Part shown: positions 8,316 through 62,535 of the stretch, piece by piece
Layout: every line of letters starts with the position of its first letter
Numbering within the stretch: position 1 is the first letter of the stretch
NCBI GenBank assembly: GCA_018127085.1
Contig: CM030722.1
Location: forward strand, 62,001-126,000
Direction of reading: 5' to 3'
Source of the DNA: Pneumocystis sp. 'macacae'
Taxonomy: Eukaryota; Ascomycota; Pneumocystomycetes; Pneumocystales; Pneumocystaceae
Length of the DNA stretch: 64,000 bases
Program-made: the position numbers and the translations under genes
Notes under the pieces: generated by a model
The model's input: the letters and a program-made list of their open reading frames with translations, nothing else
Databases searched by the model: none
What the model was told of the DNA's origin: nothing

Positions 8316-9261
8316 ATGAAAACTCATGATCCAGCTGAAAAACAAACAGCTTCTGAGGATCAACAAGAAGAGTTAAATATAGGATCATCAATATCACAAG
8401 AATTTTCTCAAGACACTTCAGAGTCATTATTTCAACAAACCATAAATGGAAACTGCCAGGACCAGACGTCAGCGTTATTGATGTTTTTAATTGGAGACTC
8501 GATGCAGAACGAACCGAATCCAGCACCTTTTTCTGATAAAAAACAACCCCAGGAGGATCTTGAGTCAAAACAGTCGCCGGAGAAAAAAAAGCGATCCCAA
8601 GTAAGAAATGCTTGCGGTAAGAGGCATGAATGTGTCTACCAGTGGCTAATTGGACACAGTGAATTGCCAGAAATCAAATAAGAAATGTGACGAAGCACGT
8701 CCATGTAGTCGCTGTATCAAACATAACCTGTTTGACTCATGTATAAACTCAAAGCGAAAGAAGCGACAAAAAGGCCTCAAACGTGGCCCCTATAAGCGCC
8801 GCAATAAACCTGTGCAAGACAAGATACAAACAGCACAGCCGCCACATTCAATGATAACAATGTTCGAAGCACAACCAACACCCGAATTTGATACCTATTT
8901 GCCAGAGTTTACAGCTCACCCGCTGTATGACTTTAATCCGCTGCATCGGTTCTGCATGCAGTCACTGCCAACACCTCCATTGGATCCTCCTCTAACATAT
9001 CCGAACATGCCTTTCTATGAAGATGGAACAACAGCACCGCCAGCAATGTTAATTGATCCATTTACCCGATATTCAATGAAAAATGTAGAAAATACACAAG
9101 AAATAATGCCTACTCTGCTAGATGATGGGCCACTTAACTGCACAATGGATCATTTACTCGAAACCCAACCAGAAACATCTTATCGACCGTTACCAGTAAG
9201 TCACGAGACGGATCTGGGCACATTGGCATCCCTCTGCGCAGCTGTATTAGGAGAAGAATAA
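8316..9261 (+). CDS. Zn(II)2Cys6 transcription factor, 2 exons
   Basis: Exons 8316-8616 and 8660-9261 join across a 43-nt intron that splits the zinc cluster, giving about 300 residues. The rebuilt cluster is C-x2-C-x6-C-x5-C-x2-C-x6-C (NCQKSNKKC, ARPCSRCIKHNLFDSC). A basic linker follows (GLKRGPYKRRNKP), a likely DNA contact and nuclear signal. The remainder is Pro-rich and acidic (DFNPLHRF, PTPPLDPP), like a short activation region. There is no fungal-TF middle homology domain, so it is small for the class. GC is already higher than in the genes to the left, marking the rising edge of the GC island. The regulated pathway cannot be told from sequence. Confidence 0.85.
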
Positions 9262-9854
9262 TTTGACAAGAGTATCAACTGGCGTTGAATTAAGTCAAAG
9301 ACAATATTCGATCAATTTAAATCATAAATGTGTTTGAAAAATGCGAAAACAAAACATTAAAGACAATAAGGTTAAGGTCATAGAAGTTGAAAAAAACTAA
9401 AATGTAACCGTGATACATAAAAGGTTTTAATAGTACTATTAATCAGATAAAAACATTCACCTTTCTATAATAATAATAAACCATCATAAACACTATTTAA
9501 TGAAAACTTACTATGTTAATATTTTCTATATAACACTGTATCAACAAAGCACCTATTACACATTACTATTCTACTAGTATACCAGTGATATTGAGGGAGT
9601 TGATATGCTGGTAAAATCGACAGAAAGCTGGTAAAGTAGAAATCAATGAAAAATTAGCAGATCACAGGCAAAACACTTGTTACATCTGCTATATATTTAC
9701 TAAATATATGTAAAATCATATAAAGTGTCTTAAATATATATTACCCTAGGATATTTATTATACTTTTAAAATATCCATGAATATTTATAAAACTTGCCCG
9801 TATCCAAATATCTGCTTTTATACGACATTACCATACATTACCACATAAAGATGC
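9262..9854. other. non-coding spacer, converging 3' ends
   Basis: About 590 bp between the stops of the Zn2Cys6 gene (+) and the derlin gene (-). AT-rich, with short phased TATATA stretches near 9690-9770. No gene or clear repeat was seen. Confidence 0.55.
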
Positions 9855-10606
9855 TTATGAAGAAATAGTCGGCACCACATCTTTAAGGTAATAATAAATA
9901 TGACCAACAAACATACCAAGGAGATCCCCCTTAGGAATAGTATTATGAAGAACAAATGAGAACCACAACAAAATCCACGGCAAATACGGCGCATTAAAGA
10001 CAAACAACCCAAGAAAAGATAAACGAACCGAGGGATTTCTACGTGACCAAAGATATATTAAACAAAATGAAAGTGGTGACGCCAAAAATGTAAGAGACAC
10101 CAATGGTGAAAGAATCTATCCTTCTTCAGCACTTTTCCCCTACCATTTTCAACCCACCAATAACGATGTAGTCGCATAAAGCAAAAGACATGCAAACTCC
10201 CACGAACGCCCTCGAAACGACGTCTCCTCAAGCATCCGGCAGTACCGTGCTCTGTAACTCGTTAGTTTTGTTACTCATCTTTCATTAGACCCACATAAAA
10301 AATATATGAAAAAGAAAGTCAAAGCTCAAATTCCCAAAATATAGAAACGTCGTTACAAGCCGCCAATACTATATTGCCTTAGCTTCTTTTTACAGCACCT
10401 CTTGATTCACCTGTTTGCGGATAATCACCGAGTGCCATGAAAAAAACAACTGAAATGGCGTTACCCAATTGCATTGCTATTCCTATCAGTTACTGTTTCT
10501 CTATAATTCTTCCTACCACTGCAAGACTTGTCGCAACAGCGCCTGTAATAAAGAGCCGTGTTACAATCGGAACGTCCATATACCATGACTCAAACAACCA
10601 CGGCAT
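9855..10606 (-). CDS. derlin, ERAD membrane protein (Der1/Dfm1 family), 5 exons
   Basis: Exons 10606-10517, 10449-10411, 10368-10295, 10251-10158 and 10115-9855 give about 185 residues. Family segments are clear: PIVTRLFITGAVATSLAV (TM1), YWRLVTTFLYFGNLSFDFLF, RYCRMLEETSFRGRSWEF, IYLWSRRNPSVRLSFLGLF, NAPYLPWILLWFSFVL and GMFVGHIYYYLKDVVP. These are the WR and G-x-x-x-G elements of the rhomboid-like derlin fold. Derlins help move misfolded ER proteins to the cytosol. The C-terminus stops soon after the last membrane segment, so the usual cytosolic tail is missing or lies in an exon I did not find. The first intron is ambiguous: the canonical 67-nt GT..AG join drops about 8 residues, while the fuller family-like join needs a non-canonical junction. 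Confidence 0.88.
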
Positions 10607-10626
10607 GTTTGTACATTCAATCCTAT

Positions 10627-11180
10627 GCAAATACCTGCACCTATAGCCAAAATATGCGTTGTATATACGAAAACTCGCACTATATAGAGCAAACTTGCAC
10701 TGTATACAGCAAGCACGCGTTGTATCACCCAAACACGTAGTATATAACTAAAATACAGGCTATATGAACCCGACACACGCTATATCCACCTAAATACGAA
10801 CTATACGTTCAAATACAAGTTATATATTCAAAAACCCGTAGTGTATGCACTCGAAACTTTGTATGCTTATATGTATATGGCCAAAGACCCGCTATATATA
10901 CTTTTAATGCCCACAAAAACCCTTGAAAAACTTGAAGCTCACTGACGCACAAAAATACTCACTATATGCGCGTAAATCCAAAACCCGTATACAAGAAACC
11001 GCCTATATACAGCAAAACCCTCACGTATATATTCAGACTCGCTTTCAGTACCTGTATTCCGCTGCTGTACTCAAAACACCTGCTATACACGTTCAGCACA
11101 GACTACATGCTCACTGAAAGCTTACACAGAAGCCGTATCCTTTGTTTTTGCGTCTGTTCAAATGCCACTGTATAACCACT
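10627..11180. repeat. degenerate tandem repeat, period about 20 bp
   Basis: Successive units look like AAACTTGCACTGTATACAGC, AAGCACGCGTTGTATCACCC, AAACACGTAGTATATAACTA and AAATACGAACTATACGTTC. The consensus is roughly AAAYACGYRYTATATANNC. Regular spacing (19-23 bp) is best from 10627 to about 10850 and then loosens. It lies directly upstream of the derlin start, so it may be an amplified promoter element. No open frame explains it. Units vary at about half their positions, so this is an old or rapidly decaying minisatellite. Confidence 0.65.
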
Positions 11181-12440
11181 TCCACTCTAAATATTGTTCT
11201 GTGTAAATACTTCTGCGCCTGTCCTTTCTCTGTTTTCCTATATTCCCTAATTATATAGAAGCGGCTTTTCAATTCTGCTTAAACTGCTCCAATTATTGTA
11301 ATTATTAAAATTCTATTGCAGCTATACTGCAATTATATTGTAATTCTACTCACTAATCCGTCTCGCTGCCTCGAGTTTTTGAGAACACACGTGTTTTCCA
11401 GAATAGTCTCAACACTCGAAACACAAAGTACACACTTAGTATGACAAACGAGTAAAAATACACAAAACACACGATATATTAACTTTATACTCAAAATATA
11501 TTCACAGTACATATACAGTACGCATTCAATGCATAGCAGTAGCTCTGTTACCTGTGTAGCTGGATGTTTCACTACCCCTATGAAGGGACACCACTACGTA
11601 TTTTAGGGACCATCTCACTCGAAAAATGCAATCTGCATCAACCAGACACACAATAAACTACCAGTGCCACGGCTACCAAGCGTCAGTAGCACTGTCAGCC
11701 CAGCTAGCCTGCACTGTGCCGGTACTGCACTGCAAAATGTATATTACTACGTCTATTGCTGCATCCATTGCGGCATATATGTACTCGTGCAAGCAGAGCC
11801 CAGTGTGTCCGGAAATCATGCAAGTCACTGTAAAAGCTCAGCGTATAAAATACATACGTGTCCCAAACAAGTCTTGCCGCCTACCATTGACACTCGGATA
11901 GCGGAATACAGAGGCAAACAGCAGTGCTGCTGCGTACGCTGCATATACTGCTGTACAGTATATGCACTGCAGGACGTGTTGCTAGGACCGAATGCACGCA
12001 CTGAGGTATTGGGATAGTGACACCACGTGCAAACATCCTGAACCATACATGCATTGTCACGTGTTCTATCTAGACATATACATTTGCACGTGACCTTGCG
12101 CGGAACTGGAGTGACAACTATACATACAGTACAAGGAAACATATATGCACAGATGCACATGCATGTACATACAAACACGTAACGATGCATGCACAAAGCA
12201 TGCTTGCTAGCGCACAGCGCACTGGCGCTGTAAGATCCCCTGTCACTTGCATTTTAGTGCACACGCAACTGTCATTCCCGTGCGTTACACATCTATGCAC
12301 CTAAGCAGATATGCCGCATCCAGCCAACAACAGTATATGTAGCTATAGCACTGCGTGTGGGCGTGTGCACAACACGCGTACAGGGCATGCATAAATACAC
12401 ATGCAATCCATCAGTCGGCATCTTGTGCAGCCTGGCTACG
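11181..12440. other. non-coding, moderately GC, derlin/USP divergent spacer
   Basis: About 1.26 kb between the derlin-side repeat and the USP promoter. GC climbs steadily. Alternating GCATATATGC/TGCATGCA-type words recur (for example 11730-11800 and 12120-12210). Six-frame stretches are open only by chance and show no protein family. It probably belongs to the regulatory or structural region of the GC island. Confidence 0.5.
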
Positions 12441-12455
12441 CATGCGCTAAACGTA

Positions 12456-12793
12456 GCCTGGTCACGTGATCCGCACACGCGTTCCTGCCTGCGGCCTGGT
12501 ATGAGCATGTCATCCCGGCTGGGCTCAGGGCAGACTGCCTCAACAAGAGCGCCCCTGAGCTGAAGGCTGCTGTGCAGGCGGCTGCATATGCCAATCTGCA
12601 GACTCAGCCGCAGTGGCCAAGACCGCTCATGGCCCAGCACAGCCCCACCGACCGAAACACATGCACAACGCACTGCCAAACAGTCCGACAGCCAAAATAC
12701 ATCCAATGCTGGCGTCGATGGTGCCCCTCCGAGCACTCCCCAGCAACCGTTGCCCGGCAACGGTTGCTGCCCACACGGGTGTCCTCTACATAA
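12456..12793 (+). other. unexplained open stretch upstream of USP
   Basis: After a stop near 12469 one frame stays open to about 12793 and begins protein-like: FLPAAWYEHVIPAGLRADC, then SAPELKAAVQAAAYANLQTQ. I do not recognise a family. The second half degenerates into Cys/His/Arg-rich text and overlaps the palindrome at 12741. GC-rich DNA has few stops, so chance openness is likely. It could be a decayed exon or part of an unannotated gene. Confidence 0.25.
12741..12769. promoter_or_regulatory. perfect palindrome with RFX X-box-like core
   Basis: Two 14-nt arms (left arm CAGCAACCGTTGCC) flank a single central C with no mismatch. The core GTTGCC-C-GGCAAC matches the RFX-family X-box pattern (two GTTGCC half-sites facing each other, 0-3 nt apart). 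It sits 49 bp upstream of the USP start codon. RFX proteins (S. pombe Sak1, S. cerevisiae Crt1) bind such sites. The assignment to an RFX protein is inference. Confidence 0.6.
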
Positions 12794-12817
12794 ACTGCCG
12801 CTGAGCACGAGCACCGC

Positions 12818-13827
12818 ATGTCTGTCTGCGCGACACCAAACACCGCTGCAACACAGGGTGCACCGCTTCCCGCGCAAACAGCACAGGACGCCCCCTGCAG
12901 CCCCGACACCCCCGTCTTCGTCCAGCGGGTCTCCTTCGACACCTTCGACAACCGCGACGCACGCGACTTCAGCCTCGCCCTCCGCGTAACCCACCGCTCC
13001 TACTGCTACACCGGGCGCTCGCGGACCTTTCTCTGTGGAATCGACCACAACGAGTACTCTGAGTCTGCACTTGACTGGCTCATCGACGTCCTTGTCGAGG
13101 ATGGCGACGAGATCATTGCCCTGCGCGTCGTTGACCCCGGTATACCCCCACCCCCCCCTCCCCCTCCCCAACACTCATCCCGCAAGGGTCGCGGATGGCA
13201 GCCGGTCTGTCCATCCAGCAGAAGAGGTACCGCAAGGACGCCGACCGCGTCCTCCAGCGCATCCTCCGCAACAACAACGAGTCAAAGGCGGTATGTGCAT
13301 CGGCTGTGCGCCGCCTGCATGTTCTCCTCACTGCACTCACTACTCCCTCCCCTGCAACCTACCCCCAACCCCTAACCCCTCCCACTGCTCGCTGCCGACT
13401 CCTGCTGACCACCAGATCTCCGTCATGGTCGAGTTCGCCGTCGGAAAAGTCACGACCACTCTCCTCCACCGCGTATGCCCAGACTGTCTGTCCCGGCTCA
13501 CCTCCAGATCCAGGTCTACCAGCCCGACTCGGTTGTCATTGGCACCCGCGGCAGAGGACTCGGCATCCAGAGCCTGCTTCCCGGGTCGATCTCCAAGTAC
13601 TGCCTCGCAACATCGCCAGTCCCAGTGATTGTTGTCCGGCCCGGCCGCAAGCGCGCAGAGGCAAAGTCCAAGCGCCTGGCAAACCCCCTGCGCCACTCAT
13701 ATATGCAGATCCTCGAGAAGTCAAACAGCACCTCAGACCTCCGGACGCTCGACCCGCACCTGTCGAAGCCGCCTGCCAAGGGCTATCTGGGGATCTTTGC
13801 TACACACAAATACAAGCGTCTGTCTGT
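12818..13827 (+). CDS. universal stress protein (Usp) domain protein, 4+ exons, 3' end uncertain
   Basis: Exons 12818-13139, 13202-13290, 13416-13472 and from 13508 onward read in frame. The Usp fold is clear: RTFLCGIDHNEYSESALDWL, DGDEIIALRVV, then SIQQKRYRKDADRVLQRIL, ISVMVEFAVGKV, and the nucleotide-loop region PDSVVIGTRGRGLGIQSLLP-GSISKYCLATSPVPVIVVRP. The fungal Usp family is linked to stress and ATP binding; the partner is unknown. The frame stays open to about 14134, across the convergent uL13m gene. The stop is therefore unplaced, and the end given is only where uL13m begins. Codons are strongly GC-ending. Intron 2 is unusually long (125 nt) and carries a short CCCTAACCCC-like stretch. 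Confidence 0.85.
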
Positions 13828-14326
13828 CTATCCTGTGCCCACTGCAGCCCAGCGCCCGGAGAGTGCGTCCCAGCGGCGCGCAATGTTCCTGGTGTGTGGG
13901 TGCTGCGCACCCTCGACGCAGCGCAGCCGCGCGAGGCGCTGGTCGCGCAGCCTGTTCTTGGGCAGCATGCCCGCGACCGCATGGCGCACAACAGCGGCGC
14001 CGCCCTCGCGCTCCATCCAGTCACGCATAGTCCAGGTCTTGAGGCCGCCGGGCCGCCCAGAGTGGCGGGCATATATGCGCGCAAGCTTGCGGCTGTCTGC
14101 ACGCAGCAGCGCACAGTGGGTGACAACAACATAGTCGCCGACATCGGCTGCCATCAGCAGTGTCGAGGACAAGACACATACCTGCAGGGTCGTAGACCGG
14201 CTTGTGTTTGCCCATAAGGAGGCGGGCAGCAGCAGTCGCAAGGCGGCCGAGGGCACAGTCGTGTGCAGAGAGCTCGTGCCAGAGGCGGGCAAGGGCGGGG
14301 CGTGTTGGGCCGCGGAGCGAGGACAT
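13828..14326 (-). CDS. MRPL23: mitochondrial large-subunit ribosomal protein uL13m, 2 exons
   Basis: Exons 14326-14182 and 14147-13828 join across a 34-nt intron to about 154 residues. The L13 signature is complete: ARLWHELSAHDCALGRLATA, ARLLMGKHKPVYDP, ADVGDYVVVTHCALL, YARHSGRPGGLKTWTMRDW, VVRHAVAGMLPKNRLRDQRL and EGAQHPH. Length and lack of extensions match fungal Mrpl23 and bacterial L13, rather than cytosolic L13a. Its 3' end overlaps the open frame of the convergent USP gene. It diverges from the SUZ12-like gene across a 647-bp repeat-filled spacer. The composition is extremely GC-rich, with Ala and Arg replacing usual residues at variable positions. Confidence 0.92.
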
Positions 14327-14389
14327 GGGGGGGACACGCCGCGCAGCGCAGAGAAGCGCGGCGGCGCACACCCGGTGCAGAGCGCGTGT

Positions 14390-14970
14390 GCATCGCTGCG
14401 CTACACGCCATACAGCGCATACACCGCGCATGTACAGTGCATACACCGCATATACTATGTATATATGCACAGTGCACACACCGCATACATCCACACGCAT
14501 ACAGTGTGCATACAACACGCATACACTCCGCATACACTACGTATATATGCATACTCCGCATACAGTGTGCATATACTGTGCATATACTATGTATACTGTG
14601 CATACACCGGAGACGCGGCCATACACTGCCGCGGTGCACCAGTGCGCGTGCTGTGCACTGCACAGTGCATACGCCACGCATACACAGCGCATATACCGCG
14701 CATATACCGCGCATATAGTGTGCATTGCATTTCATACTGTGTACGCTGCAGAATGCACGGCGCGTGCACCGAATGCACATGTATTCGGGGCGTATGCACA
14801 GTGTATGCGCAATGTATGCGGAGTATATGCGTGCTGTATGCGTGGCGTATGCGCAATGCACGTATTGTATGCGCGGTGTATGCGCGGTGCACAGCGCTAT
14901 ATGTTGTGTGCTGCACGCATATGCTTCTGTGCGCATTATATGCGGTGTATGCGGTGTGCGCTGTCGATGC
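14390..14970. repeat. mirrored GCATACAC / GTATGCGG array in a divergent promoter
   Basis: About 580 bp is packed with 8-11-nt words. From 14395 to about 14725 the plus strand reads GCATACAC, GCATATAC, GCATATAT. From about 14790 to 14970 it reads the reverse complement, TGTATGCG, GTATGCGG. The orientation flips near 14725-14770. Reading outward, each flanking gene (uL13m leftward, SUZ12-like rightward) therefore sees the same sense motif TGTATGCG upstream of its start. Purine-pyrimidine alternation is nearly perfect over long stretches. No coding frame is credible. Either a repeated transcription factor site or a structure-forming tract is possible. Confidence 0.7.
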
Positions 14971-14973
14971 GCG

Positions 14974-16812
14974 ATGGACGACGACTCGCTCTTCTCGAGA
15001 CAGTTCACCGGTAACACGGCGCTCTACTTCTTCCTGCACGAGTACCGCCAGGTAGGTGAGCACAGTGCCCACACGCTGACCGCAGCGGCTCTATCTTGCA
15101 CGGAATCTCGAGTATCTCTACAGAAAAGACGCTGCACACGACGGACAGGCCGTGCAGCACAGGCGCTCCGTCGACTCGCTTGTCTTTGAAAAGGCAGCTG
15201 CAGACGACGGGGCGACATGGACAGTGTATATGAGCCACGTAAAAATACGTATGTTTGGACAGTCGTGGCAGAGCTGACCGGTCAGCGAGAGGCACAAAGA
15301 AGCGGGGATTTGCAGGGGCATTTTCGCTCAGTGCAAGGCTTTCTGTGTGGCGGACGGATGGACAGTGCGTCTACGAGAAGGATATTGGGGGATCGGGGAG
15401 GATTGACATGCTGGACAACCTGCAGCTCAAGATGGAGGAGCCGTTTAGGATCGCAAGGTCTATTTTCAGGAGAACAAAGGGGGGTATCCGGGTAAAACGG
15501 GTCTGCAGAGGACAGCTTGTCTTCAGGATGAGTGACAGGGTGCTTATGTCGGGGATTGGAGGGGCGGTAGAGGCACCAGAGGGCGTTTTCTGGGGACAGA
15601 GGATGGTGGGGGGCGTAGAGAAGGCGGAGAGGGGGGTGGAAAGAGATTTTTTCTATGTTACATTTGATATTCCGCCAGAGAAGACAACAAGGAACCTGCA
15701 TGTGCAGTATTTGAGCGGGGAGGGGGTGCACCGGGAGACAGAGTATGTACTGAACGTGTGTTTTCTTGGGGGGGTGCAGCGGGACAGGAAGCGGGAGGAG
15801 GGGCCGAGGATATCGCTGAGACCGAAGGCAGTGGTGAAGCATCAGGCGGGGAGTGGGGATGAGAAGGTCAGGGTCTCGTATGTGTTCAAGGCAGAGGAGA
15901 ATAACGAGGTGGTGGTGAGGGTTTCGACGCGGGAGGACCTGCAGTGCCCGTGGTGCCGGGGGAGGGACTTCCAGACGAGGCAGAGGCTTCATTTCCACTT
16001 TCTGATGAACCACGAGCTTTTTTCGTTCAAGCTTGAGGCCGGGCGGTCGAATTTTCTGCAGTTTGAGATAAAGCTGGCGAACGAGTATCCATTTAGACGG
16101 ATCAGTGAGCAGAAGGTGGATTTCCGGGTTTTCCAGTGGATCAGACACGTGAGGTTCAAGCATGACATAGAAAATATTTTATCGGACAATGGAAAGTCGG
16201 TTCTATTTCATAATATAATGCTTGGGATGGATGTTGAGCAGAACGAGTCAGTGTCGGTGAACATAAGGCCCAAAAGAAACACACAGGTGCGCTGGCCTTC
16301 TAAGAACAGGATTAGACGGAAGTTTGTGGCGCCTAATTTGAATAATCTTTACAAATCTGGGTCGAAAAGGAAGATTATTCCGGGAGAAGTGCTTTCAGAG
16401 TCTGAGGATGATGTTGACGAATCATGGCTGATCCAGAAGCATGAGGATGTATATGTTCTATCGCACATTCTACCACAGTCTAATTTGTTTAGATATTGGA
16501 TGATTTTATGGATATAACGGTGTCGGAAAAAGCTTTTATGAAGCTTTGGGATAGATTTATAATCAATGACAGGTACATAGATTGCTGTAGAGTCTTTTCT
16601 GACCGTATAGACCTATTGGACGTTGTCATCTTTCTGATTCAGTAATGAGATTTGTATATTCTCATAAAAATATTCTTCAAACAGAAAACTTAATTAATGA
16701 GTTCTGGAAACATCTTCTTAACCTTGTTCAATATAAATTTATTGATCTTATAACTCTGCGGGAATCCATGGAAGTAGTTAGGAATATTCATAATGAGGCA
16801 GGGGCAAATTGA
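14974..16812 (+). CDS. SUZ12-like Polycomb (PRC2) protein with VEFS box, 5 exons
   Basis: Exons 14974-15051, 15086-15248, 15286-16448, 16493-16604 and 16643-16812 join in frame to about 561 residues. The N-terminus YFFLHEYRQRLYLARNLEYL resembles the Suz12 start region. A C2H2 finger follows in the usual place (CPWCRGRDFQTRQRLHFHFL, then MNHELFSF). The C-terminal VEFS box is recognisable: DESWLIQKHED, ILDDFMDITVSEKAFMKLWD, RFIINDRYIDCCRVFSD and NEFWKHLLNLVQYKFIDLIT. Suz12 is the core scaffold of PRC2, needed for H3K27 methylation with E(z), Eed and p55. GC falls from about 65% to below 40% along the gene, while the reading frame and domain order stay intact. Introns are 34, 37, 44 and 38 nt. 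Confidence 0.85.
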
Positions 16813-60565: not shown

Positions 60566-62535
60566 ATGTTTTGTAGATTTTCTTCGATATTTTTTTATAT
60601 TTTTCTTTTTTTTAGCACAAAAATTTGTGCATTAAAGGAACCAAATCCATTTTATCAAGAACATTTATTTTTAAAACCTTTTCCTTTTAATCATTTGCTT
60701 GCATCGTTTAGATTTAATACTTCTTCTAGCTGTGAAAAGATGTCTTTATTTGATGATACTCAGTCTACAGTTTCTGGTGCTTCTTTGCTGCATTTTAAAC
60801 TCCCACGGTCACTCAGATATATTATGGAGGAATCGTATACATATGAGTTTCAGCTTCGGATGACGCGTGGAAAATGGAATTATTATCACTGGGGAATGCC
60901 TCCTGATGATGGCGAAGTGTCAGGAGGTAGTGGAATTGAGCTTTGGGCATATATTGAAGGTGATACAATGAAAGAGTATTATTGGTGTATAATTCTGTAG
61001 GTGTTAATGGGTTATTAGAGTTGAAGAACGATGGCACGTGCTTACGAATGCCCTTTCTGGACTCTTTTGTGCTTCTATCAATCTTATGGATACTACAAAA
61101 ACAATTATACCTATTTTAAGTTTTGTTAAAAATAAGAACTATATAAAGTCGAATTGGCCAAATACAAAGGGATATTTTTTGTATGGATCTTTACCTCAGG
61201 AAACGGTCTGTACTGAGAATTTAACTCCTTTTTTAAAATTGCTGCCATGCAAAGGTCGTTCAGGGATTTCTACACTATTGGATAGTTATAGACTCTTTGA
61301 TGCACAATGGTATTCTATGTTTTTGGATGTTACCCATGTTTGCAATAAAAATAATAATAAATTATCAAGACTTATACAGGGTGTTGATTTGGTTTTGAAT
61401 ATTGATCGTGCAAGCCGTAGAGACGGTAAAAAATACTTTAATTGTTATGTTTGATTGATTATTAGTAAAGAATCCCCTATTCCCATACCAGTATCACTTG
61501 ACGATTTAGTATGTGATAACAAACGATCTTATATAAAAGATAATGCATGTTTTCCTTTAGATGATTTTTCAAATATGGAATGGTCTTTATCAAAGGTGTT
61601 TGGACGGCCAATTTCAGGGTCATGTTATTTAGATTTTTTGCCTGTTGAAGCTATTACAGTTTCTCATTCTGATGAAAAGATGATATTTCCTAAACCTGAT
61701 GTTGTTTTGGTTGAGAAAAATGCGATTCTTTCAAAATATGTTATATCATGTAAATTTTATTTTAACATTTCTCATTTATTAATTACTTAAAGCATCCGAT
61801 TTTGATATAAAAATGAAATCATATCCATCAGATACCTTCATACAAGTTACAGATGTACCTCTTTTTGTAGAACGCACTGCAACACGGAAAAATCAAATAA
61901 GTGTTATTCTCTCAAATCCTCAATCAACAGACTTTTATGTTGTATATTTAGAAACACTTCCTTGGTTTATGAAACCATTTATTCATACATTAACTGCGCA
62001 TCTTTTATTTTCTAATACAAAACACCCATTAGATTTTGAAAATATATATTTCCGACCATCTATTGACAGAAAACGCGGTTCATATTTTGAAGTACATATA
62101 CGTATTCCTAAAAATTCTTCTGTTGAAATAGTATGGGAATTTGAAAAGATGCTTCTAAGATATGCAGAATATCCTCCTGATCCAAATAGAGGATTTAATA
62201 TTGCGTAAGCATATGGTTTTATTAAAAAGGCTTATTGCTGATTTTTTAATAGACCATCTATTTTTACAGTTTTTCCTACTGAATTAGTTGAACATGTTGA
62301 ACCTATTGCAGTAATTCGAACAACTAGTCTTTTATTAACATTTCCTACACCCGATTTTAGTATGCCTTATAATGTAATTGTTTTAACAAGCACTGTGATT
62401 GCAATGCTGTTTGGTGGTATTTTTAATTTACTAACTAGAAAATTTGTTTCTCTTGAAGAAGCTGAAAAAACTGGGCATAAATTGTTGAAATTACGTATTT
62501 TAACAATTAAAATCAAGAATATGTTTAGAAAATAA
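60566..62535 (+). CDS. GPI16: Gpi16/PIG-T subunit of GPI transamidase, about 6 exons
   Basis: An N-terminal signal sequence (FSSIFFYIFLFFSTKICA) is followed by EHLFLKPFPFNHLLASFRFN and HFKLPRSLRYIMEESYTYEF. The family-typical RWHVLTNALSGLFCASINLM, then YGSLPQETVCTENLTPFLKL-LPCKGRSGISTLLDS, and FGRPISGSCYLD. Near the end are LRYAEYPPDPNRGFNIA and a single membrane helix (YNVIVLTSTVIAMLFGGIFN), then a short Lys-rich cytosolic tail. Gpi16/PIG-T is disulfide-linked to the catalytic Gpi8 (via the conserved Cys in ENLTPFLKLLPC) and attaches GPI anchors in the ER. Introns interrupt it about every 400 nt. Confidence 0.93.

Follow-up and report, generated by a model that had tools for sequence, protein, structure and literature searches.

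We analyzed a stretch of 64,000 nucleotides from the fungus Pneumocystis sp. 'macacae' (P. macacae), hereafter the window, which corresponds to positions 62,001–126,000 of contig C3 in an 8.27-Mb assembly of 19 contigs (coordinates are those of the window unless a contig is named). Within it lies an island of high G+C content (GC) that is probably the trace left by a fixed, long-lived hotspot of meiotic double-strand breaks at ~14.6 kb, one of some 50 or more in this genome. Several observations form the basis for this reading: a local rise in GC extending approximately 2 kb to each side of a focus, protein change directed toward GC-coded residues, a strand skew mirrored about the focus, and the even spacing and repeated anatomy of similar islands across the genome.

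The island proper occupies positions 12,000–16,500, with a 2-kb peak of 0.64. GC averages 0.57 across 12,001–16,500 compared with 0.284 across 17–64 kb; in 1-kb windows, it stays above 0.5 between ~12.0 and 16.5 kb and is down to 0.30 by 17 kb. The best 2-kb window reaches 0.641, while 618 two-kb windows outside islands, taken from the window and the other stretches we fetched, have a mean of 0.289 (standard deviation [SD] 0.039) and a maximum of 0.406. A first-pass annotation made from the sequence alone had proposed a GC-rich island in an AT-rich genome, spanning 9,000–16,500. These values bear out the island, and its proposed extent holds for ~12.0–16.5 kb; the left part is only a shoulder, with GC of 0.32–0.42 in 1-kb windows from 8 to 11.5 kb. 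Hand counts in that annotation, 70–77% GC in the core and single-digit GC in some spacers, were accurate: GC peaks at 0.73 per 200 bp and 0.78 per 100 bp, and the window's 200-bp minimum, at 40.9 kb, is 0.085.

Around the focus, GC is raised locally in coding and non-coding DNA alike. Because core introns (GC 0.57–0.70) and core spacers (0.51–0.54) are also GC-rich, we ruled out codon usage as the source of the island's composition. Its edges are smooth and pass through coding sequence. The right edge is crossed by a SUZ12-like gene on the + strand (14,974–16,812), modeled as five exons (14,974–15,051, 15,086–15,248, 15,286–16,448, 16,493–16,572, and 16,611–16,812) encoding 561 amino acids. 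GC at its third codon positions (GC3) runs, in order, 0.69, 0.64, 0.70, 0.72, 0.50, and 0.24, with a single reading frame throughout, as the first-pass annotation had described. The island additionally has a center of symmetry at position 14,633 (C3:76,633), defined as the point that maximizes the step in GC skew: the 2 kb to its left are C-rich (skew −0.17) and the 2 kb to its right are G-rich (+0.25). Centering the window island on GC alone also yields a positive step (+0.28).

This anatomy recurs throughout a set of 18 sequenced islands, consisting of the window island and 17 others. The latter represent 17 of the 25 counted clusters of G/C runs at least 17 long (from 100 of 108 places), with contig-end repeats and homopolymers excluded. 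The 16 complete islands average 4,645 bp in length (SD 905), and the 2-kb core has a GC of 0.59–0.69 in all 18. Every island is C-rich to the left of center and G-rich to the right, with the flip occurring inside the island. In the composite profile, GC climbs from ~0.28 to 0.66 and returns to ~0.30 near 4 kb, A and T declining about equally. C stands at 0.42 and G at 0.22 between 0.5 and 1.5 kb left of center, and the mirror image is found between 0.5 and 1 kb to the right (G 0.44, C 0.20). Composite skew amounts to 0.31–0.37 at 0.5–2 kb on each side, falls to at most 0.06 by 3.25 kb and is near background by ~4 kb.

The skew was tested in two ways, with centers derived from GC alone and with a maximized step set against an equally maximized background. 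Under GC-only centering the step is positive in 18/18 islands (mean 0.51, minimum 0.14), compared with 26 of 48 control background blocks (mean 0.05, maximum 0.48). Under step-maximized centering, islands range from 0.42 to 0.85 and the background has a mean of 0.17 and a maximum of 0.46. A comparison of 8-mers common to island centers yielded no convincing motif. As a separate observation, the GC-only center lies left of the skew center in 16/18 islands, even though the choice of + strand is arbitrary; this offset is probably due to chance or method.

We compared + strand skew at third codon positions among 40 exon pieces drawn from 17 of the islands (none from the C11 island; one piece, at C14:153.5 kb, lacks a Pfam match). 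Left of center, the skew is −0.42 for + strand genes (8 pieces, 6 islands) and −0.47 for − strand genes (13 pieces, 12 islands); right of center, it is +0.50 (15 pieces, 14 islands) and +0.37 (4 pieces, 4 islands), respectively. The sign matches the side of the center in 36/40 pieces. Strand bias is thus tied to position relative to a fixed point, and since the skew is set by the side of the center and not by gene direction, transcription does not explain it.

We mapped G/C runs at least 14 long across the assembly. After removal of contig-end repeats and homopolymers, these form 52 clusters on 17 of the 19 contigs, with one to five per contig; some runs were entered from both ends, which leaves the cluster count unaffected. 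The map omits one string that recurs eight times close to contig ends, six further places located at contig ends or probably near them, and nine homopolymer runs. A single run supports 18 of the 52 clusters, three of which (C3:76, C3:499, and C9:117) were sequenced and are islands, the other 15 being candidates. The first-pass annotation's guess that the genome might hold several such islands was thus correct, and all 18 sequenced are alike.

The clusters are also evenly spaced. Their mean separation is 111 kb, with a coefficient of variation (CV) of 0.44 over 35 intervals versus 0.80 for random placement, and none of 2,000 random trials was as even. These tests used assumed sizes for C7, C12, C13, and C16, and C19, with one cluster, contributes no interval. 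The published description of P. macacae reports 16 scaffolds (PMC7940399), compared with the 19 contigs analyzed here; 52–64 clusters over the 16 chromosome-level scaffolds of published papers would give 3.3–4.0 each. Contigs C1 (660 kb) and C12 carry one cluster each, whereas 14 of the 17 contigs with clusters carry two to five.

The composition of islands extends to the proteins they encode. For the SUZ12-like gene, we compared P. macacae with alignment columns at which P. jirovecii, P. oryctolagi, and P. murina agree. In the half nearer the island center, 31 of 121 columns are changed, 21 toward GC-coded residues and none away; in the far half, 11 of 144 are changed, with 7 toward and none away. 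Equivalent comparisons of the near half gave 8 changes toward and 5 away for P. jirovecii against P. oryctolagi and P. murina (139 columns), and 9 toward and 4 away for P. oryctolagi against P. jirovecii and P. murina (136 columns). Across the far part, P. macacae is nearer to P. jirovecii (identity 0.84–0.89) than to P. oryctolagi; in the near part its identity to P. jirovecii is 0.44–0.61, compared with 0.66–0.80 for P. oryctolagi. The SUZ12 island looks derived in the P. macacae lineage.

A second gene, MON2 (PMAC_002103), begins at the center of the island at C3:501 kb and extends outward from it. Relative to columns at which P. canis, P. carinii, and P. wakefieldiae agree, P. macacae has 105 changes in 359 columns over residues 1–600, 66 toward GC-coded residues and 4 away, versus 87 changes in 611 columns past residue 600, with 35 toward and 24 away (near versus far, Fisher P = 2e-6). 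Over residues 1–600, P. jirovecii has 21 toward and 13 away, with much of residues 110–230 missing from its sequence, and P. oryctolagi has 25 toward and 9 away. The content of glycine, alanine, arginine, and proline (GARP) in the first 100 residues is 0.45 in P. macacae, 0.40 in P. jirovecii, and 0.37 in P. oryctolagi, compared with 0.17–0.25 in the other three species (P = 0.002 and 0.005). P. jirovecii and P. oryctolagi seem to share the MON2 island in part, and because the GARP-rich start is common to all three, this site seems older than the SUZ12 site. In both genes, replacement changes appear directed from weak to strong bases (W-to-S) and most strongly so at the focus. LSD1 (PMAC_002240) was compared with P. 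jirovecii only; its differences are mostly GC-ward, and their direction is unpolarized. Among the best 120 of 957 matches to this LSD1-like demethylase (C4:282–285 kb), P. macacae and P. jirovecii are the only named Pneumocystis, for which loss elsewhere or an effect of length or annotation are possible reasons.

The spacer at 14,400–14,960 of the window consists of alternating pyrimidine-purine sequence and contains a degenerate 11-bp minisatellite, GCATAYACNNN. It spans the center: five exact matches lie on the + strand (14,519–14,715) and three on the − strand (14,793–14,883). Genome-wide, the pattern has 98 matches in 36 clusters, and the reversed-pattern control has none. Within 6 kb of a GC-run cluster lie 23 of the 36 clusters and 78 of the 98 matches, where 3.0 clusters are expected and at most 9 were found in 2,000 random placements. 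The minisatellite is thus strongly associated with islands; it is present at 22/52 GC-run clusters, and 13 of the 36 minisatellite clusters have none nearby. A capture-recapture estimate puts the number of islands at ~81, an overestimate if some 11-bp clusters fall outside islands. Beyond the window, the tract occurs in 8 of the 17 other islands, 0.5–3.4 kb from the center, and as it is central in the window only, we rejected it as a mark of the center. It could cause recombination, assist it, or arise as a by-product of it.

How might a recombination hotspot generate such an island? SPO11 breaks would recur at the island center, and 5′ resection would leave 3′-ended strands (+ to the left of the break, − to its right), as is described for resection at human hotspots (PMC7615360). 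These strands would invade the homolog, and heteroduplex mismatches would be repaired toward G:C, preferentially by placing C into the 3′-ended strand, which would thus turn C-rich on each side. Correction of T:G to C:G mainly in the invading strand would have the right sign for the skew we observe. Over long times, 4–5 kb around the break would reach ~65% GC, coding sequence included. The genome encodes a putative SPO11, identified by a TP6A_N match at C12:219,969–220,082 (52.3 bits; cut-off 26), and contains UDG-family matches, so candidate glycosylases exist. P. jirovecii, P. carinii, and P. murina are reported to possess and transcribe genes for mating and meiosis (PMC4764891).

GC-biased gene conversion (gBGC) at a fixed hotspot was the first explanation offered in the first-pass annotation, and it is the best supported: one-way protein change and a mirror skew independent of gene direction argue for it, and we infer recombination itself from these patterns. 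The number of islands, their even spacing, the strand flip, its independence of transcription, the direction of protein change, and the minisatellite are additions to that account. More tentatively, and with somewhat less than even confidence, we suggest that the islands compose a fossil map of meiotic breaks, in which 50–80 evenly spaced, long-lived hotspots undergo GC-biased, strand-directed repair that places C on the 3′-ended strand, the skew gives the position and side of each break, and GCATAYACNNN helps specify or stabilize the sites.

A number of points weigh against the hotspot interpretation. It derives from composition and sequence comparison. Seventeen of the 18 islands were picked for holding G/C runs at least 17 long, the window island alone not being so chosen. 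Four of the 40 exon pieces have the opposite skew sign (1/8 left/+, 2/13 left/−, and 1/4 right/−), and in the far half of SUZ12 GC-ward changes become rarer yet persist. The exponential decay of GC with distance that is expected from the yeast model, though not from all models, is not seen: the composite profile is flat-topped, and an exponential tract model leaves a residual sum of squares of 0.065 versus 0.017 for a free shape, although the flat top may come in part from averaging islands of unequal width. Furthermore, gBGC requires heterozygosity. Pneumocystis is thought to be primary homothallic, and P. jirovecii infections are described as polyclonal in most if not all cases (PMC5821091); five P. 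macacae assemblies are reported to diverge by 0.8% (PMC7940399). Finally, at human PRDM9 hotspots, the flanking 2 kb carry strand-asymmetric mutation that is mirrored about the break, as in the islands (PMC7615360). There, the strand exposed on the left undergoes C>N and A>N change, opposite to the accumulation of C on that strand here, so the strand bias cannot come from mutation of this kind in single-stranded DNA.

Owing to the flat-topped profile and the heterozygosity that biased conversion requires in a homothallic genus, we retain as the main rival a mutational process linked to breaks, in which recurrent breaks are followed by error-prone repair synthesis that inserts G/C with a strand preference. 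Heterozygosity would be unnecessary for such a process, which suits a homothallic fungus that selfs and agrees with the strand symmetry of the islands, and meiotic breaks in humans are reported to be mutagenic and strand-asymmetric (PMC7615360). We nevertheless regard it as unlikely. The observed sign is opposite to that of simple deamination of the 3′ tail and would also be opposite to that of Rev1-type C insertion during gap filling or D-loop extension, and with a background GC of 0.289 the general mutation bias is probably AT-ward.

Replication origins would place a G-rich leading strand to the right and so produce a flip from C to G skew, and a fork-linked bias could also raise GC. The sign of the flip fits, as do the even spacing and a weak AT skew in the composite, with A on the left and T on the right at ~1.75–2.25 kb. 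Fork asymmetry should persist toward the next origin, however, and the skew has dropped to background-like values within a few kilobases; moreover, replication origins are not known to double GC or to force amino acid change. This explanation is accordingly a rather remote one.

About as unlikely is selection for chromosome-structural sites, such as DNA bound by kinetochores or cohesin; a structural role was the alternative named in the first-pass annotation. Chromatin immunoprecipitation sequencing of Mis12 in P. macacae gave ~4–6 peaks per chromosome that "tend to occur in GC rich regions" (PMC10327204), and the island clusters per scaffold are of the same order. The authors of those data could not tell whether the peaks are artifacts, and centromeres of P. 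murina and P. carinii average 3.9% lower GC (PMC10327204). Structural selection predicts neither a mirrored strand skew nor one-way amino acid change in unrelated genes. We specifically rejected regional centromeres on the basis of the sign of GC, which is high in islands, and of their number, up to five per contig. Centromeres in Pneumocystis resemble islands in spanning a few kilobases, being genic, and lacking repeats, but there is one per chromosome, with lower GC (PMC10327204).

Transcription-linked strand bias combined with promoter CpG islands is highly improbable. Several centers do lie between divergent genes, including the histone pair H3/H4 (C2:196 kb), MCM and Cdc14-like/L44, adenylosuccinate synthetase/LSD1, kinase/OMP decarboxylase (C8:130 kb), and Cdc20/H2B (histone types and the MCM and kinase subtypes were assigned by eye). 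The skew keeps its sign, however, at tandem pairs (TBP/squalene synthase on C1 and ABC/chloride channel at C4:446 kb), at a convergent pair (DEAD helicase/UCH peptidase at C10:84 kb), and in genes of either strand, and the ratio of observed to expected CpG inside 2.5 kb of the center, 0.78–1.01, is near background. Mis-join, contamination, or horizontal transfer, which the first-pass annotation had already discounted, deserves next to no credence, in that the three island genes searched have Pneumocystis orthologs, the GC gradient runs inside exons without sharp edges or foreign genes, identical anatomy recurs 18 times, two predicted proteins match the deposited P. macacae assembly (MON2 at 100%; LSD1 at 100% over the aligned 92%), Nanopore and/or Illumina reads are reported to reveal no incorrect joins around rearrangement breakpoints (PMC7940399), and we found no evidence in its favor.

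The nearest parallels to a hotspot origin come from other organisms. In the gerbils Psammomys and Meriones, extreme-GC regions are ascribed to gBGC and recombination, and like the islands they involve local clusters of extreme GC in ordinary genes, with lineage-specific W-to-S bias at silent and replacement sites (PMC7403616). Those regions were analyzed as gene clusters and 1-Mb windows, and the "GC skew" of that paper denotes W-to-S bias, not G-versus-C strand asymmetry (PMC7403616); the islands, in contrast, are ~4.6 kb long, flat-topped on average, evenly spaced, and marked by a mirrored strand flip. In yeast, GC3 gradients are attributed to meiotic conversion tracts, with GC decaying from break sites and a quoted median tract of 2 kb (PMC3020949). 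That effect is exponential and an average over genes (PMC3020949), whereas the islands are single loci at which GC more than doubles and an exponential fits worse. The gBGC footprint is known; what is new is that the islands are fixed, spaced evenly, and strand-polar, and can be read from a single genome.

Among the matches listed in the Creative Commons-licensed Pneumocystis literature that we searched, as represented by titles, abstract openings, and passages, we found no description of the islands. The nearest statement is the placement of Mis12 peaks in GC-rich regions (PMC10327204). The islands are candidates for these GC-rich regions, and a hotspot origin may account for the extra peaks reported in P. 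macacae. Pneumocystis has no reliable continuous culture, which precludes genetic manipulation (PMC10327204). If correct, our interpretation would provide a hotspot map from base composition alone for a genus with a human pathogen among its members, and it would suggest sex with some outcrossing, frequent enough to shape the proteins that core genes encode. Islands contain genes for core histones, TBP, and ribosomal proteins, and rapid protein change in island genes would then need to be guarded against as a false sign of adaptation. The fixed strand polarity also makes it testable which heteroduplex strand GC-biased repair acts on.

The remaining contents of the window island are ordinary eukaryotic genes with introns, as the first-pass annotation had stated. 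A Usp-domain gene lies on the + strand at 12,818–14,134, with PF00582 detected in two exons; its introns were placed by eye (first exon 12,818–13,138, a later one from 13,511), and its C terminus is provisional. Antisense to its end, on the − strand at 13,830–14,248, is a ribosomal protein L13-like gene, for which PF00572 matches 14,021–14,248; the 13,830–14,147 piece has no Pfam match and was assigned by eye, and the 5′ exon is provisional. Inside the island, Pfam detects Usp, ribosomal L13 and, just under its curated cut-off, the SUZ12 zinc domain; eRF1, Zn2Cys6, Rad51, and TIP49 domains are found around it. The SUZ12-like gene, a component of Polycomb repressive complex 2 (PRC2), is retained in P. 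oryctolagi, P. jirovecii, P. murina, P. carinii, and P. canis. To the left of the island is a long shoulder at 9,262–12,000 (GC 0.38), in which we recognized no gene and which has a degenerate 20-bp repeat at 10,662–10,712. Scanning the window against Rfam at gathering thresholds returned no matches.

Two contigs terminate in TTAGGG arrays. The GC-rich string left out of the run map occurs at eight places in both orientations (C3:306, C4:553169, C8:480287, C10:472864, C13:6509, C15:374631, C16:10593, and C16:338686), and it lies within ~12 kb of a contig end in all seven cases where the end is known; it is probably a subtelomeric repeat.

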